Source: Actinomycetospora sp.
Lineage (GTDB): Bacteria > Actinomycetota > Actinomycetes > Mycobacteriales > Pseudonocardiaceae
Assembly: GCA_025925615.1 (NCBI GenBank)
Contig: JAICLN010000098.1
Span: 1 to 11,301, forward strand
Length of the DNA stretch: 11,301 nucleotides
Reading direction: 5' to 3'
Part shown: piece after piece, positions 6,374 to 11,301 of the stretch
Layout of the letters: each line of letters starts with the position of its first letter
Numbering within the stretch: the stretch's first letter is position 1
Notes under the pieces: model-generated
The model's input: the letters and a program-made list of their open reading frames with translations, nothing else
The model's database searches: none
Told to the model about the DNA's origin: nothing
Program-made: the position numbers and the translations under genes

Positions 6374-7874
6374 GTGCCCACACCGAGGGTCCCGGAGCCC
6401 GTCGTCCCGCCCGGGGCCACCTCTCTCGCCGCCCGGCTGCGAGACCTCGCCAGGGCCGACCCGGACGCGCCGGCGGTGTCCGACGGCGACGCCCTCCTGA
6501 CCCGGGCCGACCTCGAGGTCCGGACGAACCGGCTGGCCCGGGCCTTCGCGGGTCGGGGGGTCGGGCGCGGGGACCTGGTGTCGATCGCCCTCGGCAACGT
6601 CGTCGCCCACGTCGCCTGCTCGGTCGCGGCCTGGAAGGTCGGGGCGGTCCCGCAGCCGCTGTCGGCCCGCCTGCCCCCGGGGGAACGCGACGCCGTCCTC
6701 GAGGTCGCCGACCCGGCGCTCGTCGTCGGGCTGCCCGATCCCGGCCGGCCGTCCCTGACCGCCGAGGACGTCGACCGGGCGGCGACCGACGGCGAGGCCG
6801 CACCCCTGCCCGACGTCGTCGGGCCCTCCTGGAAGGCGCCCACCTCCGGGGGCAGCACCGGCCGACCGAAGGTGATCGTCGCCGGTGGGGCCGCCTGCAC
6901 CGAGCACGTGCTGGCGCGCGCCGACGGGCTGCGGATCGACCGGGCGGGGGTGTTCCTGGCGACGGCGCCGCTGCACCACAACGCGCCGTACATGTTCTCG
7001 CTGATGGCCTTGCTGCAGGGCCACCACGTGGTGCTCATGCAGCGCTTCGACGCGGCCCGCACGCTGGAGCTGCTGGGCGAGCACGGCGTGACCTGGCTCT
7101 ACCTGGTCCCGACGATGATGGGCCGGATGTTGCGCCTGCCCGACGCGGCGTGGGAGACCGCGGACCTGTCGAGCTTGCGGACCGCGCTGCACGTCGGCGC
7201 GCCGTGCCCGCCCGAGGTCAAGCGCGGCTGGCTGTCACGGCTGCCGGCGCCGGAGATCCTCGTGGAGCTGTACGCGGGGACCGAGTCGCAGGCGAGCGCG
7301 ATGATCGACGGCCGGGAGTGGCTCGCGCACCCGGGGTCGGTCGGCCGGGTCACCCGCGGCGAGATGGCGGTGTGGGACGACGACGGGCACGTGTGCCCGC
7401 CCGGGGTCGTCGGCGAGCTGTGGATGCGCCCCGAGGGCCCGCCGACGTACTCCTACCTCGGGGCCTCGGCGCGCGCGGTCGACGGGTGGGAGTCCCTCGG
7501 CGACATGGGCTCGTTCGACGACGAGGGCTACCTGTACCTCGCGGACCGGCGGGCCGACATGATCGTCGTCGGGGGCGCGAACGTGTACCCCGGCCGAGGT
7601 GGAGGCGGCGCTGCTGGCGCACCCGGAGGTGGCCGACGCGGTCGTCGTCGGGGTGCCCGACGAGGACCTCGGGCGCGTGGTGCACGCGGTGGTCCAGCCG
7701 GTGGACGAGGCGGCGCCGGCGCTCGCCGAGCGGCTGGGCGTCGACCTCGCCGACCGGCTGTCCCGGCACAAGATCCCGCGGACCGTGGAGCTGGTCGACC
7801 ACCCGCTGCGCGACGACGCGGGGACGGTGAGGCGAGGTGCGCTTCGCGCTCGTGAGCACTTTCCGGGGTCATAG
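6374..7874 (+). pseudogene. acyl-CoA synthetase (AMP-binding family), frameshifted
   Basis: The frame starts at GTG 6374 with no clear ribosome-binding site. ANL-family motifs are in order: the P-loop TSGGSTGRPK (157-166), YAGTESQ (from 300), and WESLGDMGSFDDEGYLYLAD with RRADMIVVGGANVYP just before the break. At 7588-7591 there is a run of four C where three are expected. The frame then becomes Gly/Arg-rich nonsense to 7855, while the +1 frame continues perfectly as AEVEAALLAHPEVADAVVVG and ends at TAG 7872-7874. The C-terminal lid reads DHPLRDDAGTVRR, where the family has GK: the catalytic Lys is Thr (ACG, 7824-7826). The last 12 residues come from a palindromic repeat. It would activate a carboxylic acid with ATP and CoA (substrate unknown). 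The frameshift alone could be a sequencing error, but the lost Lys and foreign tail favour a decaying gene. Confidence 0.82.
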
Positions 7875-7907
7875 ACCCGGAAAATGCACACATGCCCGGA
7901 GGGCACC
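7836..7907. repeat. palindromic gene-end element, copy 1 (between convergent genes)
   Basis: This matches the element at 10559-10629. The left small hairpin is TGCGC-TTC-GCGCT, the central palindrome is imperfect (3 to 4 mismatches and one bulge, centred on GGGTC-ATA-GACCC at 7866-7878), and the right small hairpin is TGCCC-GGA-GGGCA. The synthetase reading frame enters from the left and stops at TAG 7872-7874. A minus-strand frame entering from the right would stop at 7869-7871. The NlpC/P60 stop codon (7907-7909) overlaps its right edge. It likely acts as a bidirectional terminator. Confidence 0.85.
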
Positions 7908-8680
7908 TATCGGGCGCCGCCCAAGCTGACGTCGCCGAACATGTTGCCGAGCTTGACCGACTCGCCGGGCTCCGGCGCGGTCCAGATCTTGTTGTTCCCG
8001 GCGTAGATCGCGACGTGGTAGATGCTGTTCGAGCCGCCCATGAACACCAGGTCGCCGGGCTGCGCCTGGCTCTTGCTGATGTGCTGCACGGCGTCGTACT
8101 GCTGCTGCGCCGTGCGGGGCAGGCTGATGCCCATCTTCTTGAACACGTAGGACGTGAATCCGGAGCAGTCGAACGAGCTCGGGCCGGTGGCGCCGTAGAC
8201 GTAGGGCGTGCCCTCGAACGACGCGGCCGTGGAGACGATCCGGTCGCCGAGCGGACCGAGACCGGCCACGCTGCTCGCCGAGCTCGAGGCCTTCTTCGCC
8301 GCGCTGGCCTTCTGCGCCGCGGCCTTCTTCGCGGCGGCGGCCTGGTCGGCAGCAGCCTTCTTGGCGGCGTCGGCGGCCGGCGAGGTGTGCTTGACCGCGG
8401 GCGCGGCGGCCGGGGCGGTCGCCGCGATCGGGGTGACGGCGGCGCGCTGGGTGGGGACCGAGGCCGCGTGGGGGGAGTACGCGGTCAGGTTCGTCGCGGC
8501 GTGGGAGACGTCCGTGCTCGGGAACGAGAAGGCCCCGGTGGAGCCGGCGACGGCGGCGGCGCTCGCGGTGACGAGCGCGGCGGCGATCCCGGCGCGGGTG
8601 AGGGAGCTGTCGGTGAAGGAGCTGGGGAGGGACACCGGCAGGGACATCGGACCAGCGGTCGCGGCATGACGTCCGGGCAT
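7907..8680 (-). CDS. secreted NlpC/P60 peptidoglycan endopeptidase
   Basis: 257 aa from ATG 8680, preceded by GAGAAAG about 7 nt upstream. The frame is open to 9004, but only this start gives a signal-like N-terminus. An export signal (LTRAGIAAALVTASAAAVAG, about residues 30-50) is followed by a Pro/Ala-rich stretch and an Ala/Lys-rich low-complexity segment (AADAAKKAAADQAAAAKKAA), then a C-terminal NlpC/P60 domain (about 145-257). Catalytic Cys172 is in FDCSGFTSYVF and His222 in IYHVAIYAG. The third polar residue, usually His, Glu or Asn before AP, appears to be Thr234 (IWTAP). The enzyme should cleave peptide cross-links of peptidoglycan outside the membrane, in growth or cell separation. 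It stands alone as a minus-strand gene, with its own promoter and long leader, and converges on the synthetase at the palindromic element. Confidence 0.9.
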   Translation of the reverse strand: MPGRHAATAGPMSLPVSLPSSFTDSSLTRAGIAAALVTASAAAVAGSTGAFSFPSTDVSHAATNLTAYSPHAASVPTQRAAVTPIAATAPAAAPAVKHTSPAADAAKKAAADQAAAAKKAAAQKASAAKKASSSASSVAGLGPLGDRIVSTAASFEGTPYVYGATGPSSFDCSGFTSYVFKKMGISLPRTAQQQYDAVQHISKSQAQPGDLVFMGGSNSIYHVAIYAGNNKIWTAPEPGESVKLGNMFGDVSLGGAR

Positions 8681-8775
8681 GGCGGCACTTTCTCGGTCGT
8701 CCACGACGCCTCGGGGTGCGTCGCTCCCGTCCTCGACCGCGATGCGGTTCCTGACCCGGTCCACCCCCTGGGGAG

Positions 8776-8803
8776 CGGGTCGCCGGACGGGCACGGCGAC
8801 CCG
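8776..8803 (-). promoter_or_regulatory. hairpin in the NlpC/P60 leader
   Basis: CGGGTCGCC (8776-8784) and GGCGACCCG (8795-8803) form a perfect 9-bp stem with a 10-nt loop inside the roughly 160-nt leader of the hydrolase mRNA. Cell-wall hydrolase genes of actinobacteria often have structured leaders, but I do not see the conserved motifs of the c-di-AMP (ydaO) riboswitch here. Confidence 0.4.
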
Positions 8804-8845
8804 GGCGTGGAGCCCGATCGACCCACCGGGAGGTGAGTTGCCGAG

Positions 8846-8873
8846 ACCGTATCGAGACCTTTTCGTGATCCAA
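8846..8873 (-). promoter_or_regulatory. promoter of the NlpC/P60 gene
   Basis: On the minus strand, TTGGAT (8868-8873) and TACGGT (8846-8851) are 16 bp apart, in the style of actinobacterial sigma-70 promoters. Transcription would start near 8839 and give a 5' leader of about 160 nt before ATG 8680, which is unusually long and GC-rich. Confidence 0.5.
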
Positions 8874-8900
8874 AGGGCCGCTTTCGGGGCAGTGGCGCGC

Positions 8901-8941
8901 CGGGCGGTCGGGTGGGTGGTCCTCGTGCGGACGACCGCCCG
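8901..8941. repeat. 10-bp inverted repeat
   Basis: CGGGCGGTCG (8901-8910) and CGACCGCCCG (8932-8941) are perfect complements around a 21-nt loop. It lies upstream of the NlpC/P60 promoter on the minus strand. Either a terminator for transcription coming from the right or a protein-binding site; undecided. Confidence 0.5.
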
Positions 8942-9147
8942 CCGCGATGTCCCCGACGCCGAGCGCCCGTGTGGCCCCCCGAGTACGGCCCTACGGAGCA
9001 GCAATCGGGGTGCTCGGCCCTCGCCGAGCGTCGTCGGCGGTCCGGGTGCGGGGGTGGTCTGCCCGGTTCCCGGCCGCCGGTCGTCGCGTCGGCGGGGCGG
9101 TGAGTCGTCCTCGAGCGTCGGCGGGCGGTCTGCCCTGGGCGCGTTCT

Positions 9148-9276
9148 GAGCGAGGGGCGCCTTTGCTCGATCCAGCCGACCGTGGGTGCCCTTCGCCGGA
9201 TGCCGGACGGCTCGGGCTTTCCGAGCGAGGGGGCCCTTCGCTCGATCTATTCGACCGAGGGTGCCCTTCGCTCAGA
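9148..9276. repeat. cluster of four GAGCGAGGG…CCCTTCGCTC palindromes
   Basis: Four related imperfect palindromes of about 21 nt start at 9148, 9178, 9223 and 9253. They form two pairs with the same 30-nt internal spacing, the second pair 75 nt after the first, so a composite unit of about 55 nt seems to have been duplicated. Each unit can fold as GAGCGA-GGG…CCC-TTCGCTC. The copies at 9223 and 9253 are the most regular. Confidence 0.65.
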
Positions 9277-9366
9277 ACCGGCACCGGCTCGCCGCCGTCG
9301 GGACCCACCCGTCGTCGTCGGGATCGGCCGACGCTCCGCGGGCGAGGGGAGGATTCGGCCGCTCTA

Positions 9367-9393
9367 CCGGCACGAGGGTTCCCCTCGCGCCGG
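9367..9393. repeat. isolated 11-bp hairpin
   Basis: CCGGC-A-CGAGGG, then TTC, then CCCTCG-C-GCCGG makes a stem of 11 pairs with one A/C mismatch. The CGAGGG core resembles the cluster just upstream. It lies about 75 nt before the GNAT start and could end transcription from the left or belong to the same repeat family. Confidence 0.5.
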
Positions 9394-9457
9394 GCAGGCG
9401 TCGTCGTTCGTCGACCTCCAGCGGGCGTCGCGAAGCGGGCGTCCGAGCGCGGCGGTC

Positions 9458-9463
9458 TACCGT
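9458..9463 (+). promoter_or_regulatory. -10 box of a leaderless GNAT transcript
   Basis: TACCGT ends 6 nt before GTG 9470, the spacing expected if transcription starts at the GTG itself. No ribosome-binding site is visible. Leaderless mRNAs of this form are common in actinobacteria. Confidence 0.5.
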
Positions 9464-9469
9464 GGCCGC

Positions 9470-9934
9470 GTGGCCGCCCAGGAGTCCGACGACACCGTCA
9501 CGATCGAGATCGTGGAGACGCTCGACGACGCCGTCCGCGCCGCCGTCGAACGCCTCCTCCCGCAGCTCTCGCGCAGCGCGACGTTCTCCGAGCAGACGCT
9601 CGCGTGGGTGGTCGCGCACGAGGCGACGACGCTGTTCGTCGCCAAGGTCGGCGGCGACGTCGTCGGGGCCCTGACGCTCGTGATGTACCCGCTCCCGACG
9701 GGGCTGCGGGCGCACGTCGACGACGTGGTGGTCGACGACGCCGTGCGCGGGCGCGGGGTGGGGGAGGCGCTCGTGCGTGCCGGGGTCGACCGCGCCGTCG
9801 AGGTGGGCGCGCGCACCGTCGACCTCACGTCGCGCCCCTCGCGGGAGTCGGCGATCCGGCTCTACGAGCGGGTCGGGTTCGTCCGGCGCGACTCCACGCT
9901 CTTCCGCTGGACGCCTCCGGGCGACGAGGCCTGA
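9470..9934 (+). CDS. GNAT-family N-acetyltransferase
   Basis: 154 aa from GTG 9470. The frame is open upstream to 9182, but that part runs through the palindromic repeats and has no codon bias. GNAT features are: an N-terminal helix (DDAVRAAVERLLPQL), a beta hairpin TTLFVAKVGGDVVGALTLVM, the core HVDDVVVDDAVRGRGVGEAL with the acetyl-CoA pyrophosphate-binding RGRGVG (93-98), and the C-terminal SRESAIRLYERVGFVRR. It transfers an acetyl group from acetyl-CoA to an amine of unknown identity (small molecule or protein). It is followed after 23 nt by the carboxymuconolactone-decarboxylase-like gene in the same direction, but that gene seems to have its own promoter. Confidence 0.9.
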   Translation: MAAQESDDTVTIEIVETLDDAVRAAVERLLPQLSRSATFSEQTLAWVVAHEATTLFVAKVGGDVVGALTLVMYPLPTGLRAHVDDVVVDDAVRGRGVGEALVRAGVDRAVEVGARTVDLTSRPSRESAIRLYERVGFVRRDSTLFRWTPPGDEA

Positions 9935-9944
9935 GGCAGGGGAA

Positions 9945-9950
9945 TAGCGT
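9945..9950 (+). promoter_or_regulatory. -10 box of a leaderless CMD-like transcript
   Basis: TAGCGT ends 7 nt before ATG 9958, and no ribosome-binding site lies in the 23-nt gap after the GNAT gene except a distant AGGCAGGGG. This again fits a leaderless start, so the second gene can be expressed without the first. Confidence 0.5.
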
Positions 9951-9957
9951 CCGCGCC

Positions 9958-10557
9958 ATGACCGATCTCCCCGCGGCGGACGCGAAGGACTGGGGCGGGC
10001 GACTCCCGCGCAACGAGACGCTGGACCTCGACGACGACCAGCGCGCCGTGTCGGAGCAGATCCGGGACCGCAGCACGCGCTGGGCCGAGCGCTCGGGCTT
10101 CGCGCCGACCGACGACCAGGGCGGGCTCCTCGGCCCGTTCAACGCGTTCGTGCTCCGGCCCGGCCAGGCCCGGGGCTTCAACCAGTGGGTGCAGCACGAC
10201 CAGAAGCACTCGTCGCTGCCGGCGCAGGTCCGCGAGGTCGTGATCCTCACGGTCGGGCTCGCCTGGGGCGCGGACTACGAGATCTACGCGCACGTCGCGG
10301 TCGGCCGGTCCGTCGGGCTGTCCGAGACGGTGATCGCCGGCCTGCGCTCGGGCTCGACCGAGGGCTTCACCCACCACGAGACCACCGCGCACCGGTTCAC
10401 CGACCAGCTGGTGCGCACCCACCGCGTCGACGACGCCACGTACGCGGCGGCCGAGGAGGCCTTCGGGCGCGACGGGGTGCTCGACATGGTGCACCTGATC
10501 GGGATGTACCTCGCGACGTCGGCGCTGCTCAACGCGTTCGAGGTTCCTGCTCCTTAG
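9958..10557 (+). CDS. carboxymuconolactone decarboxylase-fold protein
   Basis: 199 aa from ATG 9958. The centre carries the CMD/AhpD-fold signature: LPAQVREVVILTVGLAWGAD, then YEIYAHVAVGRSVGLSETVI, with E108 and H112 in the usual helix. The protein contains no Cys at all, so the CxxC of AhpD peroxidases is absent and a thiol peroxidase role is excluded. The length and the N-terminal extension (RNETLDLDDDQRAV…) fit the larger family members related to 4-carboxymuconolactone decarboxylase. Those act on lactones of aromatic catabolism, but no other gene of that pathway is here and the substrate is unknown. It is cytoplasmic. Its TAG stop (10555-10557) is one base before the palindromic element. 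Confidence 0.87.
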   Translation: MTDLPAADAKDWGGRLPRNETLDLDDDQRAVSEQIRDRSTRWAERSGFAPTDDQGGLLGPFNAFVLRPGQARGFNQWVQHDQKHSSLPAQVREVVILTVGLAWGADYEIYAHVAVGRSVGLSETVIAGLRSGSTEGFTHHETTAHRFTDQLVRTHRVDDATYAAAEEAFGRDGVLDMVHLIGMYLATSALLNAFEVPAP

Positions 10558-10558
10558 C

Positions 10559-10629
10559 GGTGCCCGTGGGCATGTGAGCACTTTCCGGGGCTATAGCCCC
10601 GGAAAGTGCTCACATGCCCGAAGGGCACC
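10559..10629. repeat. palindromic gene-end element, copy 2 (52-nt perfect palindrome)
   Basis: The core 10568-10619 is a perfect palindrome with 26-bp arms centred on CTATAG. Outside it, GGTGCCC (10559-10565) pairs with GGGCACC (10623-10629). The ends can alternatively fold as two small hairpins, TGCCC-GT-GGGCA (10561-10572) and TGCCC-GAA-GGGCA (10615-10627). The central CTATAG gives a TAG stop on both strands, and the minus-strand permease uses it (10591-10593). It lies exactly between convergent genes, so a bidirectional terminator is the likely role. Confidence 0.9.
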
Positions 10630-11301
10630 CAGGAGTTCCGGCTCGCGGCCACGGAGACACCGGGCCGCGGCCCGCGTCAGCGCGGCGAACAGAAGGCTCC
10701 CGACGACGAGGGCGGCCGGGACGCCCGCCCAGTCCAGCGGCACGTCGCCGGTGAGGGTGCCCGCGAGGAGCACCGCCGCGGCCGGTGCCGCCGTCAGCGC
10801 CGTCGCGTAGAGGCAGAGCTGGACCTTGACCGAGTAGGCCGGGGTCGGGCCGCCGGTCGCGTCCAGGGGGAGCGGGAGCCGAGCGGAGGCGTAGGCCATC
10901 ACGCCGGCACCTCCGAGCAGCAGCGCCGGGGTGAGCGCCGCGACCCACGGCCACGCCCACTCCTGGCCCGAGACCGCCGTCCCGACGACCCCCGCGACGA
11001 CCGCCACCGGCCCGGTGACGACGAGCCACGCGAGCTGCCGCCCTCGCAGGTCCGGGCCGCTGCTGTGCGGGGCGAGCAGCGTCGACCAGACCGCGGTGCC
11101 GTCGTGCCCGTACAGGTTGCTCGCGCACGCCGCGGTGATCACCGTCCAGAGCAGCCCCCCGAAGGGCAGCAGCGCCGTCGTCGCCGACGTGCTCGCGGGC
11201 AGCAGGGCCGTGCCCGCGCTGACCACGAGTGCGATGAGCAGGCAGGTCAGCCGCAGCGGGTCGCGCACCCAGAGCCGCAGTTCCTTCGCGACGACGGCGC
11301 C
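10591..11301 (-). CDS. ABC-2-type transporter permease (C-terminal part)
   Basis: The frame enters from the right edge and encodes 236 residues in the window. A GTG at 11268 exists, but the coding sequence plainly continues upstream of it (AVVAKELRLWVRDPLR), so the 5' end lies outside. KELRLWxRDPxR is typical of large actinobacterial ABC permeases. About six hydrophobic segments follow, among them LTCLLIALVVSAGTALL, LLPFGGLLWTVITAACA, LAWLVVTGPVAVVAGVVG, VAALTPALLLGGAGVMA and VPAALVVGSLLFAALT. Between them is SNLYGHDGTAVWSTLLAP, a loop common in this family. It resides in the membrane and would work with an ATPase encoded outside the window; its cargo is unknown. The last 12 residues (GALRACEHFPGL) and the stop are encoded by the palindromic element. 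Confidence 0.82.
   Translation of the reverse strand, partial: GAVVAKELRLWVRDPLRLTCLLIALVVSAGTALLPASTSATTALLPFGGLLWTVITAACASNLYGHDGTAVWSTLLAPHSSGPDLRGRQLAWLVVTGPVAVVAGVVGTAVSGQEWAWPWVAALTPALLLGGAGVMAYASARLPLPLDATGGPTPAYSVKVQLCLYATALTAAPAAAVLLAGTLTGDVPLDWAGVPAALVVGSLLFAALTRAAARCLRGREPELLGALRACEHFPGL

Follow-up and report, generated by a model that had tools for sequence, protein, structure and literature searches.

The window, an 11,301-nt stretch of Actinomycetospora sp. DNA, contains two copies of a palindromic element, copy 1 at 7836–7907 and copy 2 at 10559–10629, the positions given in the original prediction. The predicted three-hairpin design was also right: a long central palindrome stands between two small hairpins, each of which is self-paired. 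In copy 1, which has 1 mismatch to the core pattern of the home genome, the left small hairpin GCGC-TTC-GCGC (7839–7849) is followed by a 40-nt core palindrome with an imperfect right arm (7852–7891) and by the right small hairpin TGCCC-GGA-GGGCA (7893–7905). Copy 2 has the left small hairpin TGCCC-GT-GGGCA (10561–10572), a 40-nt core running from GTGA to TCAC (10574–10613) and the right small hairpin TGCCC-GAA-GGGCA (10615–10627), which shows a TTC loop on the opposite strand, and the perfect 52-nt palindrome announced for this copy lies at 10568–10619. As predicted, the left small hairpin keeps its pairing with changed letters, TGCCC/GGGCA in copy 2 and GCGC/GCGC in copy 1.

Among the perfect palindromes of the window, the runner-up measures 20 nt, and a perfect palindrome of 52 nt has a chance expectation of about 2e-11 in the window under a simple base model. 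With up to 3 mismatches, GTGAGCACTTTCCGGGG matches the window 4 times, compared with 0.03 expected from shuffles. RNA folding z-scores for the two strands are −12.9 and −13.0 for copy 2, far beyond shuffled sequences, and −4.8 and −5.9 for copy 1, moderately so. At the Rfam gathering score, a tRNA is the sole match in the window, with none for the element; a tRNA-Met (CAT) lies at 1013–1089.

Gene ends meet at both copies, although ‘exactly between convergent genes’, as the prediction had it, is too simple, since the stops lie at the element edge or at the palindrome centre and leave no simple gap. At copy 1, a plus-strand TAG at the palindrome centre (7872–7874) ends the C-terminal frame (7599–7874) of an acyl-CoA ligase (AMP-binding), and a minus-strand TAG at the edge (7907–7909) is the stop of an NlpC/P60 gene with its 3′ end at 7907. 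At copy 2, the plus-strand CMD-family gene (9958–10557) stops at a TAG (10555–10557) 1 nt ahead of the element, and a minus-strand TAG at the palindrome centre (10591–10593) is the stop of the minus-strand ORF 10591–11268, which has no Pfam match and whose C-terminus, ...ALRACEHFPGL, is encoded in part by copy 2. The ligase frame breaks at about 7590, between AMP-binding and AMP-binding_C, through either an assembly error or a broken gene; owing to this break, the longer ligase ORF ends at 7855 instead, and the gene caller scores its end at +4 of the core, not +23.

Two other repeats were noticed in the window. A further inverted repeat, GCCGAGTGGACC ... GGTCCACTCGGC, is present at 1617–1740 in two copies of 52 nt that are 87% identical and stand 72 nt apart. 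Upstream of a GNAT gene, at 9141–9388, a 56-nt repeat with GAGCGAGGGG ... GGGTGCCCTTCGC-like boxes occurs three times, the other two copies matching the first at 84% and 63%.

Copy number, length and range of the repeat family

The window copies are members of an Actinomycetospora repeat family. In the home genome (G000; 3.52 Mb in 382 contigs, 59.8% complete), the home core has 69 copies with up to 3 mismatches and the reversed pattern has 0; 51 of the 69, a selection that favours few mismatches, were examined in context. The frame GTGAGCA-N26-TGCTCAC is present in 18 of 18 genomes of the genus, with 2–183 matches each and 1,112 in total, and the reversed control gives 0 in all 18. The original prediction had proposed a genome search for more copies; the outcome of few copies is absent. 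A search with the CMD-family gene matched A. endophytica, A. callitridis, A. chibensis, A. chiangmaiensis, A. soli and two further Actinomycetospora species.

The length of the core is fixed. When the inner gap of the frame was freed to 12–42 nt in three genomes, giving 126, 186 and 150 matches, exactly N26 (the 40-nt core) accounted for 119, 183 and 145 of these, or 447 of 462. A scan for palindromes of the form GTGA-Nx-TCAC (at least 3/4 paired, total length 30–51 nt) over contiguous stretches of 400, 165 and 209 kb found 28 at 40 nt, 1 at 32 nt, 1 at 38 nt and 0 at other lengths, with 0 for the reversed control at length 40. Cores with other openings, GTGAGTA and GTGAACG, exist as well. Two contig-end copies in the home genome (L016 and L017, contigs C11 and C13) share one flank in inverted orientation, an assembly fold-back at the palindrome, and one of them may be chimeric.

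Across 390 Pseudonocardiaceae genomes, the frame is otherwise frequent in one genus, g26 (present in 15 of 22 genomes, with 58 matches at most). The remaining 350 genomes include 38 with a frame match, at most 2 each, which is near chance given that the reversed control yields one match each in 14. In g26, matches of free length number 63 in genome G383 and 28 in G378, of which 58 and 22 are exactly 40 nt long. The 14 g26 palindromes examined, which come from 12 of 16 loci, show no evident GGTG small hairpins, and several have arms prolonged as CCC/GGG. Of 20 inward-pointing genes in g26, called with codon scores trained on Actinomycetospora and not on g26 itself, 10 end within −25 to +40 of the core start, 1 of them inside the core. 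The composite of stops and small hairpins has thus so far been found, within the genomes examined, in Actinomycetospora alone.

Pairing, gene ends and stop codons

The letters of the stems change while their pairing is kept. Stem sequences differ between species: the home genome has CACTTTCCGGGG, A. endophytica CACTAATTGACG and A. callitridis CACTTCGGAGTG, and in genome G042 several stem types occur together. The pairing was measured at core positions 8–18, the outer 7 bp being set by the search pattern, in 223 cores that are distinct within each of 16 genomes and were taken from among the matches listed: 83.9% of cells are Watson–Crick, compared with 23–34% when the partner is slid by 1–3 nt, and the Watson–Crick pair types that recur in 3 copies or more add up to 34 across the 11 positions, as against 21–26 when slid. 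Within the home genome, both 17-nt arms are identical in 42 of 50 copies.

The small hairpins vary in their letters from copy to copy in the home genome, yet 100 of 101 halves form a local stem of 3 bp or more (58 at most in 100 shuffles of the letters, with a mean of 44) and 82 form one of 4 bp or more (26 at most when shuffled, with a mean of 15); a control stretch further out has 45 and 19 such halves, respectively. The letters of the left and right inner stems agree in 5 of 49 home elements, which indicates that each small hairpin pairs with itself and is kept on its own. The same count rules out a single long foldback as the conserved structure.

Positioned at gene ends, the home copies are convergent in 33 of 48 placed cases, tandem in 15 and divergent in 0, with another 3 unresolved, in a set of 51 entries that excludes one core incomplete at a contig end and includes one core of another type; a slightly different rule gives 32 convergent, 15 tandem, 0 divergent and 4 unresolved among 51 copies. 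All 196 distinct copies examined divide into 103 convergent, 78 tandem, 9 divergent, 2 within a called gene and 4 at a stretch edge, and the convergent share, 103 of 196, compares with 128 convergent among the 724 gene pairs that serve as background in the contiguous stretches. The unselected G042 stretch of 400 kb has 66 convergent, 248 tandem and 66 divergent gene pairs, which contain 6, 11 and 4 of its 21 elements, respectively. The predicted placement by gene orientation is therefore clear in the home genome, but the convergent bias is weak in this unselected stretch.

Nearly all inward-pointing genes (277 of 284) have their ends in the interval from −25 to +40 nt relative to the core start, as called by a custom caller with a codon-usage score, which misplaces the ligase end (+4 instead of +23). 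The 82 home gene ends fall on a small number of stops: a TAG at the element edge (36 at −15 and 6 at −13), a TGA in the small-hairpin loop (6 at −6 or −7), the TGA of the opening GTGA (20 at +4, one being the frame-broken ligase) and the palindrome centre (5 at +23). The edge stop at −15, the GTGA stop and the centre stop lie in three different frames. At 368182–369236 in genome G042 (L154), two elements flank an extra gene where the corresponding G098 locus (contig C4, 67203, L167) has one element, which would fit the gain or loss of a gene between elements.

Genes that end at the centre gain a palindrome-encoded tail, EHFPGL; the five home cases, one of which is the window ORF 10591–11268, read ALRACEHFPGL in four and VLRTREHFPGL in one. 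Rickettsia palindromic elements insert in-frame and similarly add residues to proteins, as our element does in these five home genes; here, by contrast, they are added at the C-terminal end, where the element closes the reading frame. The Rickettsia elements carry a CGTC tag, according to PMC3733652.

At the centre of the home core (positions 21–23, read on either strand, 100 halves), the codon is TAG in 59, TAA in 22, TGA in 14, TGG in 1 and another in 4. The single TGG compares with 9.4 expected if the two variable letters were independent (0 of 5,000 permutations). Halves whose own gene does not stop at the centre still have a stop there in 89 of 94 cases, with TGG at 1 as against 9.5 expected (0 of 20,000 permutations). 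CCATGG is absent from 50 home cores, though it would make a better palindrome. The home centre thus looks like a target of selection on a stop codon; the permutations treat halves as independent, and the copies are related and exchange cores.

Elsewhere in the genus the pattern is uneven. Among the matches listed, third-frame stops occur in 95 of 100 half-cores in the home genome, 103 of 116 in G042, 66 of 100 in G098, 38 of 50 in G152 and 2 of 48 in G150 (A. callitridis), and are mixed in 11 other genomes with 1–10 cores each. TGG at the centre is clearly depleted in G042 (7 versus 15.7 expected, 0 of 5,000 permutations), slightly so in G098 (11 versus 14.1, p = 0.013) and not in G152 (18 versus 19.4, p = 0.17), and stands at 3 versus 3.0 in G150. 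Centre stops in G042 are hardly more frequent in half-cores without a stop at positions 9–11 (45 of 58 versus 41 of 58). A three-frame stop as a genus-wide rule is weakened by the count in G150 and the uneven TGG depletion.

Core differences at orthologous sites

Of 61 elements in G042, 12 have both flanks on one G098 locus in a single orientation, and at 7 of these 12 loci both genomes have an element in the corresponding position. Their cores match at 33, 19, 32, 34, 20, 25 and 37 of 40 letters, where unrelated cores that share the frame are estimated to agree at about 20 of 40. Four of the 7 sites keep both small hairpins (at least 18 of 24 nt per side), around cores that match at 33, 34, 37 and 20 of 40. 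The last of these, L244/L208, has flanks that are 91–93% identical and conserved small hairpins, with a core identity of 20 of 40, and each of the two core types is common in its own genome, which suggests that one of the two was replaced as a block.

Similar differences are seen at other sites. At the site of copy 1, the left small hairpin is conserved in A. endophytica (21 of 24) beside a core that matches at only 21 of 40, with the right hairpin at 10 of 24, and A. sp. TBRC 11914 has a different 40-nt palindrome (17 of 40). One site in genome G155 has both small hairpins with the core missing. The orthologs L234 and L203 differ by symmetric double changes, as judged by eye. The home copy L037 has no counterpart in G042 or G155, and the CMD gene is shorter with its element than in 12 element-less orthologs. 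Together, the sites suggest that the core can change faster than its surroundings, beyond what point mutation alone would give, although clear cases are few.

Candidate roles and origins

We consider it probable, from the sequence comparisons, that this is a dispersed, structure-selected gene-end element of Actinomycetospora that forms the 3′ end of both transcripts. At the end of either neighbour's mRNA, a small hairpin, a long one of 18–20 bp and another small one would follow each other, and this composite could make the 3′ end through two-way, U-tract-less termination, through a block to 3′-to-5′ decay, or both. Neighbouring ORFs would draw their stop from the element or its edge, that is, from the edge TAG, from the TGA of the core-opening GTGA or from a stop further in, and we infer selection on these stops. 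Within a species, copies would spread and homogenise, and the 40-nt core would be swapped as a unit at a conserved site by some putative route of exchange.

The anatomy fits a two-way 3′ end, with predicted hairpins of up to 18–20 bp that either follow a stop codon directly or span it. Inverted repeats downstream of stop codons are a general bacterial feature according to PMC13155455 and PMC1590033, and REPs no more than 15 nt from a stop codon are reported to stall ribosomes (PMC12306157). A scan of 7000–11301 for intrinsic terminators gave three hits, none at either element, and the elements have no U-tract. A U-tract intrinsic terminator is ruled out by the lack of a T-rich tail behind the element hairpins. 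The missing U-tract counts against this reading, as do the near-identical home cores (42 of 50), which a terminator would not need, the weak convergent bias in the G042 stretch and the g26 cores that have no evident small hairpins.

The original prediction had also raised a mobile, REP- or MITE-like element, which holds up only by half, as the core appears replaceable at orthologous sites where small hairpins persist, and the REP transposase family is absent from the genus genomes examined. REP and BIME elements (GTAG and CGTC super-families) adjoin the 3′ ends of convergent and same-direction, not divergent, ORFs, and in this position, as in their high copy number and palindromic form, our element is like them, as they are described in PMC3733652. 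It is likewise a palindrome of 20–40 bp, high in copy and extragenic. That such an element was moved here by a REP-associated tyrosine (Y1) transposase is nevertheless highly improbable. The transposase domain PF01797 was found in 0 of 18 genus genomes, 3 of them less than 90% complete, where the control search was positive in 5 of 14 known genomes; and the small-hairpin letters vary among copies. TAGGTG stands at the edge of 54 of 100 home halves with a varying preceding letter (C in 21, G in 20, A in 11 and T in 2), so that there is no fixed tag, and within 23 nt outside the core GTAG occurs in 21 and CGTC in 8 of 100 halves. Unlike a REP, the element has an exact 40-nt GTGA/TCAC core, two self-paired small hairpins and species-varying stems. 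A REP with a RAYT was rejected on the missing PF01797 and the lack of a fixed tetranucleotide tag. As a whole, the original interpretation is partly supported, its repeated, structure-conserved gene-end element being borne out by the 69 home copies and the matches in 18 of 18 genus genomes.

A MITE-like insertion that duplicates TA (TA-GGTG ... CACC-TA), whose autonomous partner is lost or unseen and whose old copies survive near gene ends by bringing stops, would accord with the home copy L037 that has no counterpart in G042 and G155, and with the CMD gene that is shorter than its 12 orthologs. TA precedes GGTG in 44 of 50 home halves whose gene has its stop no further in than the edge, a TA that is largely a consequence of the TAG stop itself; of the halves whose gene does not need it, 10 of 42 have TA, and another 8 of 100 home halves lack GGTG. 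These counts, and a mixed picture at the empty sites, leave room for a TA-targeting MITE, which we regard as unlikely, as TA is missing from 32 of the 42 unused ends, from the corresponding point in the 12 CMD orthologs (by eye) and from the L037 site in G042, where G155 does have a TAG stop, and conserved small hairpins around a different core are ill-suited to insertion of a whole unit. It is also rather unlikely that these are ordinary U-less bidirectional terminators, each of which arose at its own site, where selection together with quasi-palindrome template-switch correction kept the arms complementary, similarity within a genome being parallel. The symmetric double changes at L234/L203 would suit such an origin, but both 17-nt arms are the same in 42 of 50 home copies where a terminator needs no particular letters, the cores of L244/L208, at 20 of 40 between conserved hairpins, resemble block replacement and not point changes, and the length is fixed at 40. 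Ju et al. reportedly described bidirectional transcription terminators of convergent genes in 2019; these serve two convergent transcripts with one hairpin of long stem and short loop, as ours would, and we know of no case in which they form a repeated sequence family, whereas here the length, the ends and, in the home genome, the stem letters are common to dozens of copies. Structured ends without a U-tract (intrinsic or Rho-dependent being left open) and bidirectional ends have been mapped by 3′-end mapping in Streptomyces clavuligerus, according to PMC8269248, in line with terminators that evolved in place.

The GTGAGCA/TGCTCAC frame recurs genus-wide at one spacing, and most home stems are identical, as would be expected of a sequence-specific DNA signal, a protein-binding or uptake-like site, that sits in terminators by chance. 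Uptake sequences sit in terminators in Neisseria and Pasteurellaceae, and there too a repeated motif forms an inverted pair between convergent genes. In our case, however, single motifs are not in excess outside the palindromes: GTGAGCA occurs 121 times in the 400 kb of G042, 34 of them in elements, against a Markov expectation of 111, and cores that open with GTGAGTA and GTGAACG also occur. A DNA signal is for these reasons quite improbable, and an uptake-like one was rejected on the GTGAGCA count.

Returning to the gene-end element with a two-way 3′ end, a more specific version can be put forward tentatively, and we hold it to be possible but doubtful. The elements may be gene-end docking sites at which the 40-nt core is exchanged as a cassette and the flanking hairpins stay; in the home genome they might combine stops in three frames on two strands with a two-way stop of transcription, the centre being kept as a stop even where no called gene uses it. 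If the core is truly replaced as a block, bacteria would copy 40 nt between dispersed sites in a way that Y1, the one transposase family searched for, does not explain, and Actinomycetospora, with as many as 183 matches in a genome and 18 genomes available, would be a good place to find the copying process. The element would also be a natural, compact two-way gene end of stops and hairpins, and it makes U-less hairpin termination in GC-rich actinomycetes testable. Repeated extragenic palindromes at gene ends are already known; what is unusual here is that the length is exactly 40 nt, that cores appear to be replaced as blocks and that the home genome has a stop codon at the centre. A literature search, with subscription journals mostly outside its reach, found no description of this element family.

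Other palindromes were noticed in the same genomes. A different family with an odd centre, GAACG-GCACTTTC, is represented by L074, L081, L108 and L119–L124 (G042, G075, G013 and six genomes of genus g5), that is, in other Pseudonocardiaceae genera and two Actinomycetospora, and GCACTTTC ... GAAAGTGC reaches 50 in G013. In genus g16, the reversed control CGTGAAAG ... CTTTCACG is itself abundant, up to 44, and is probably another palindrome family. Repeats with AAGATC ends lie at about 224304–262533 in G155, and a repeated palindrome around GACGTCGC, with arms of the CATGATCAA type, is found at 178220 and 261460 in G042 and at 187939 in G155.
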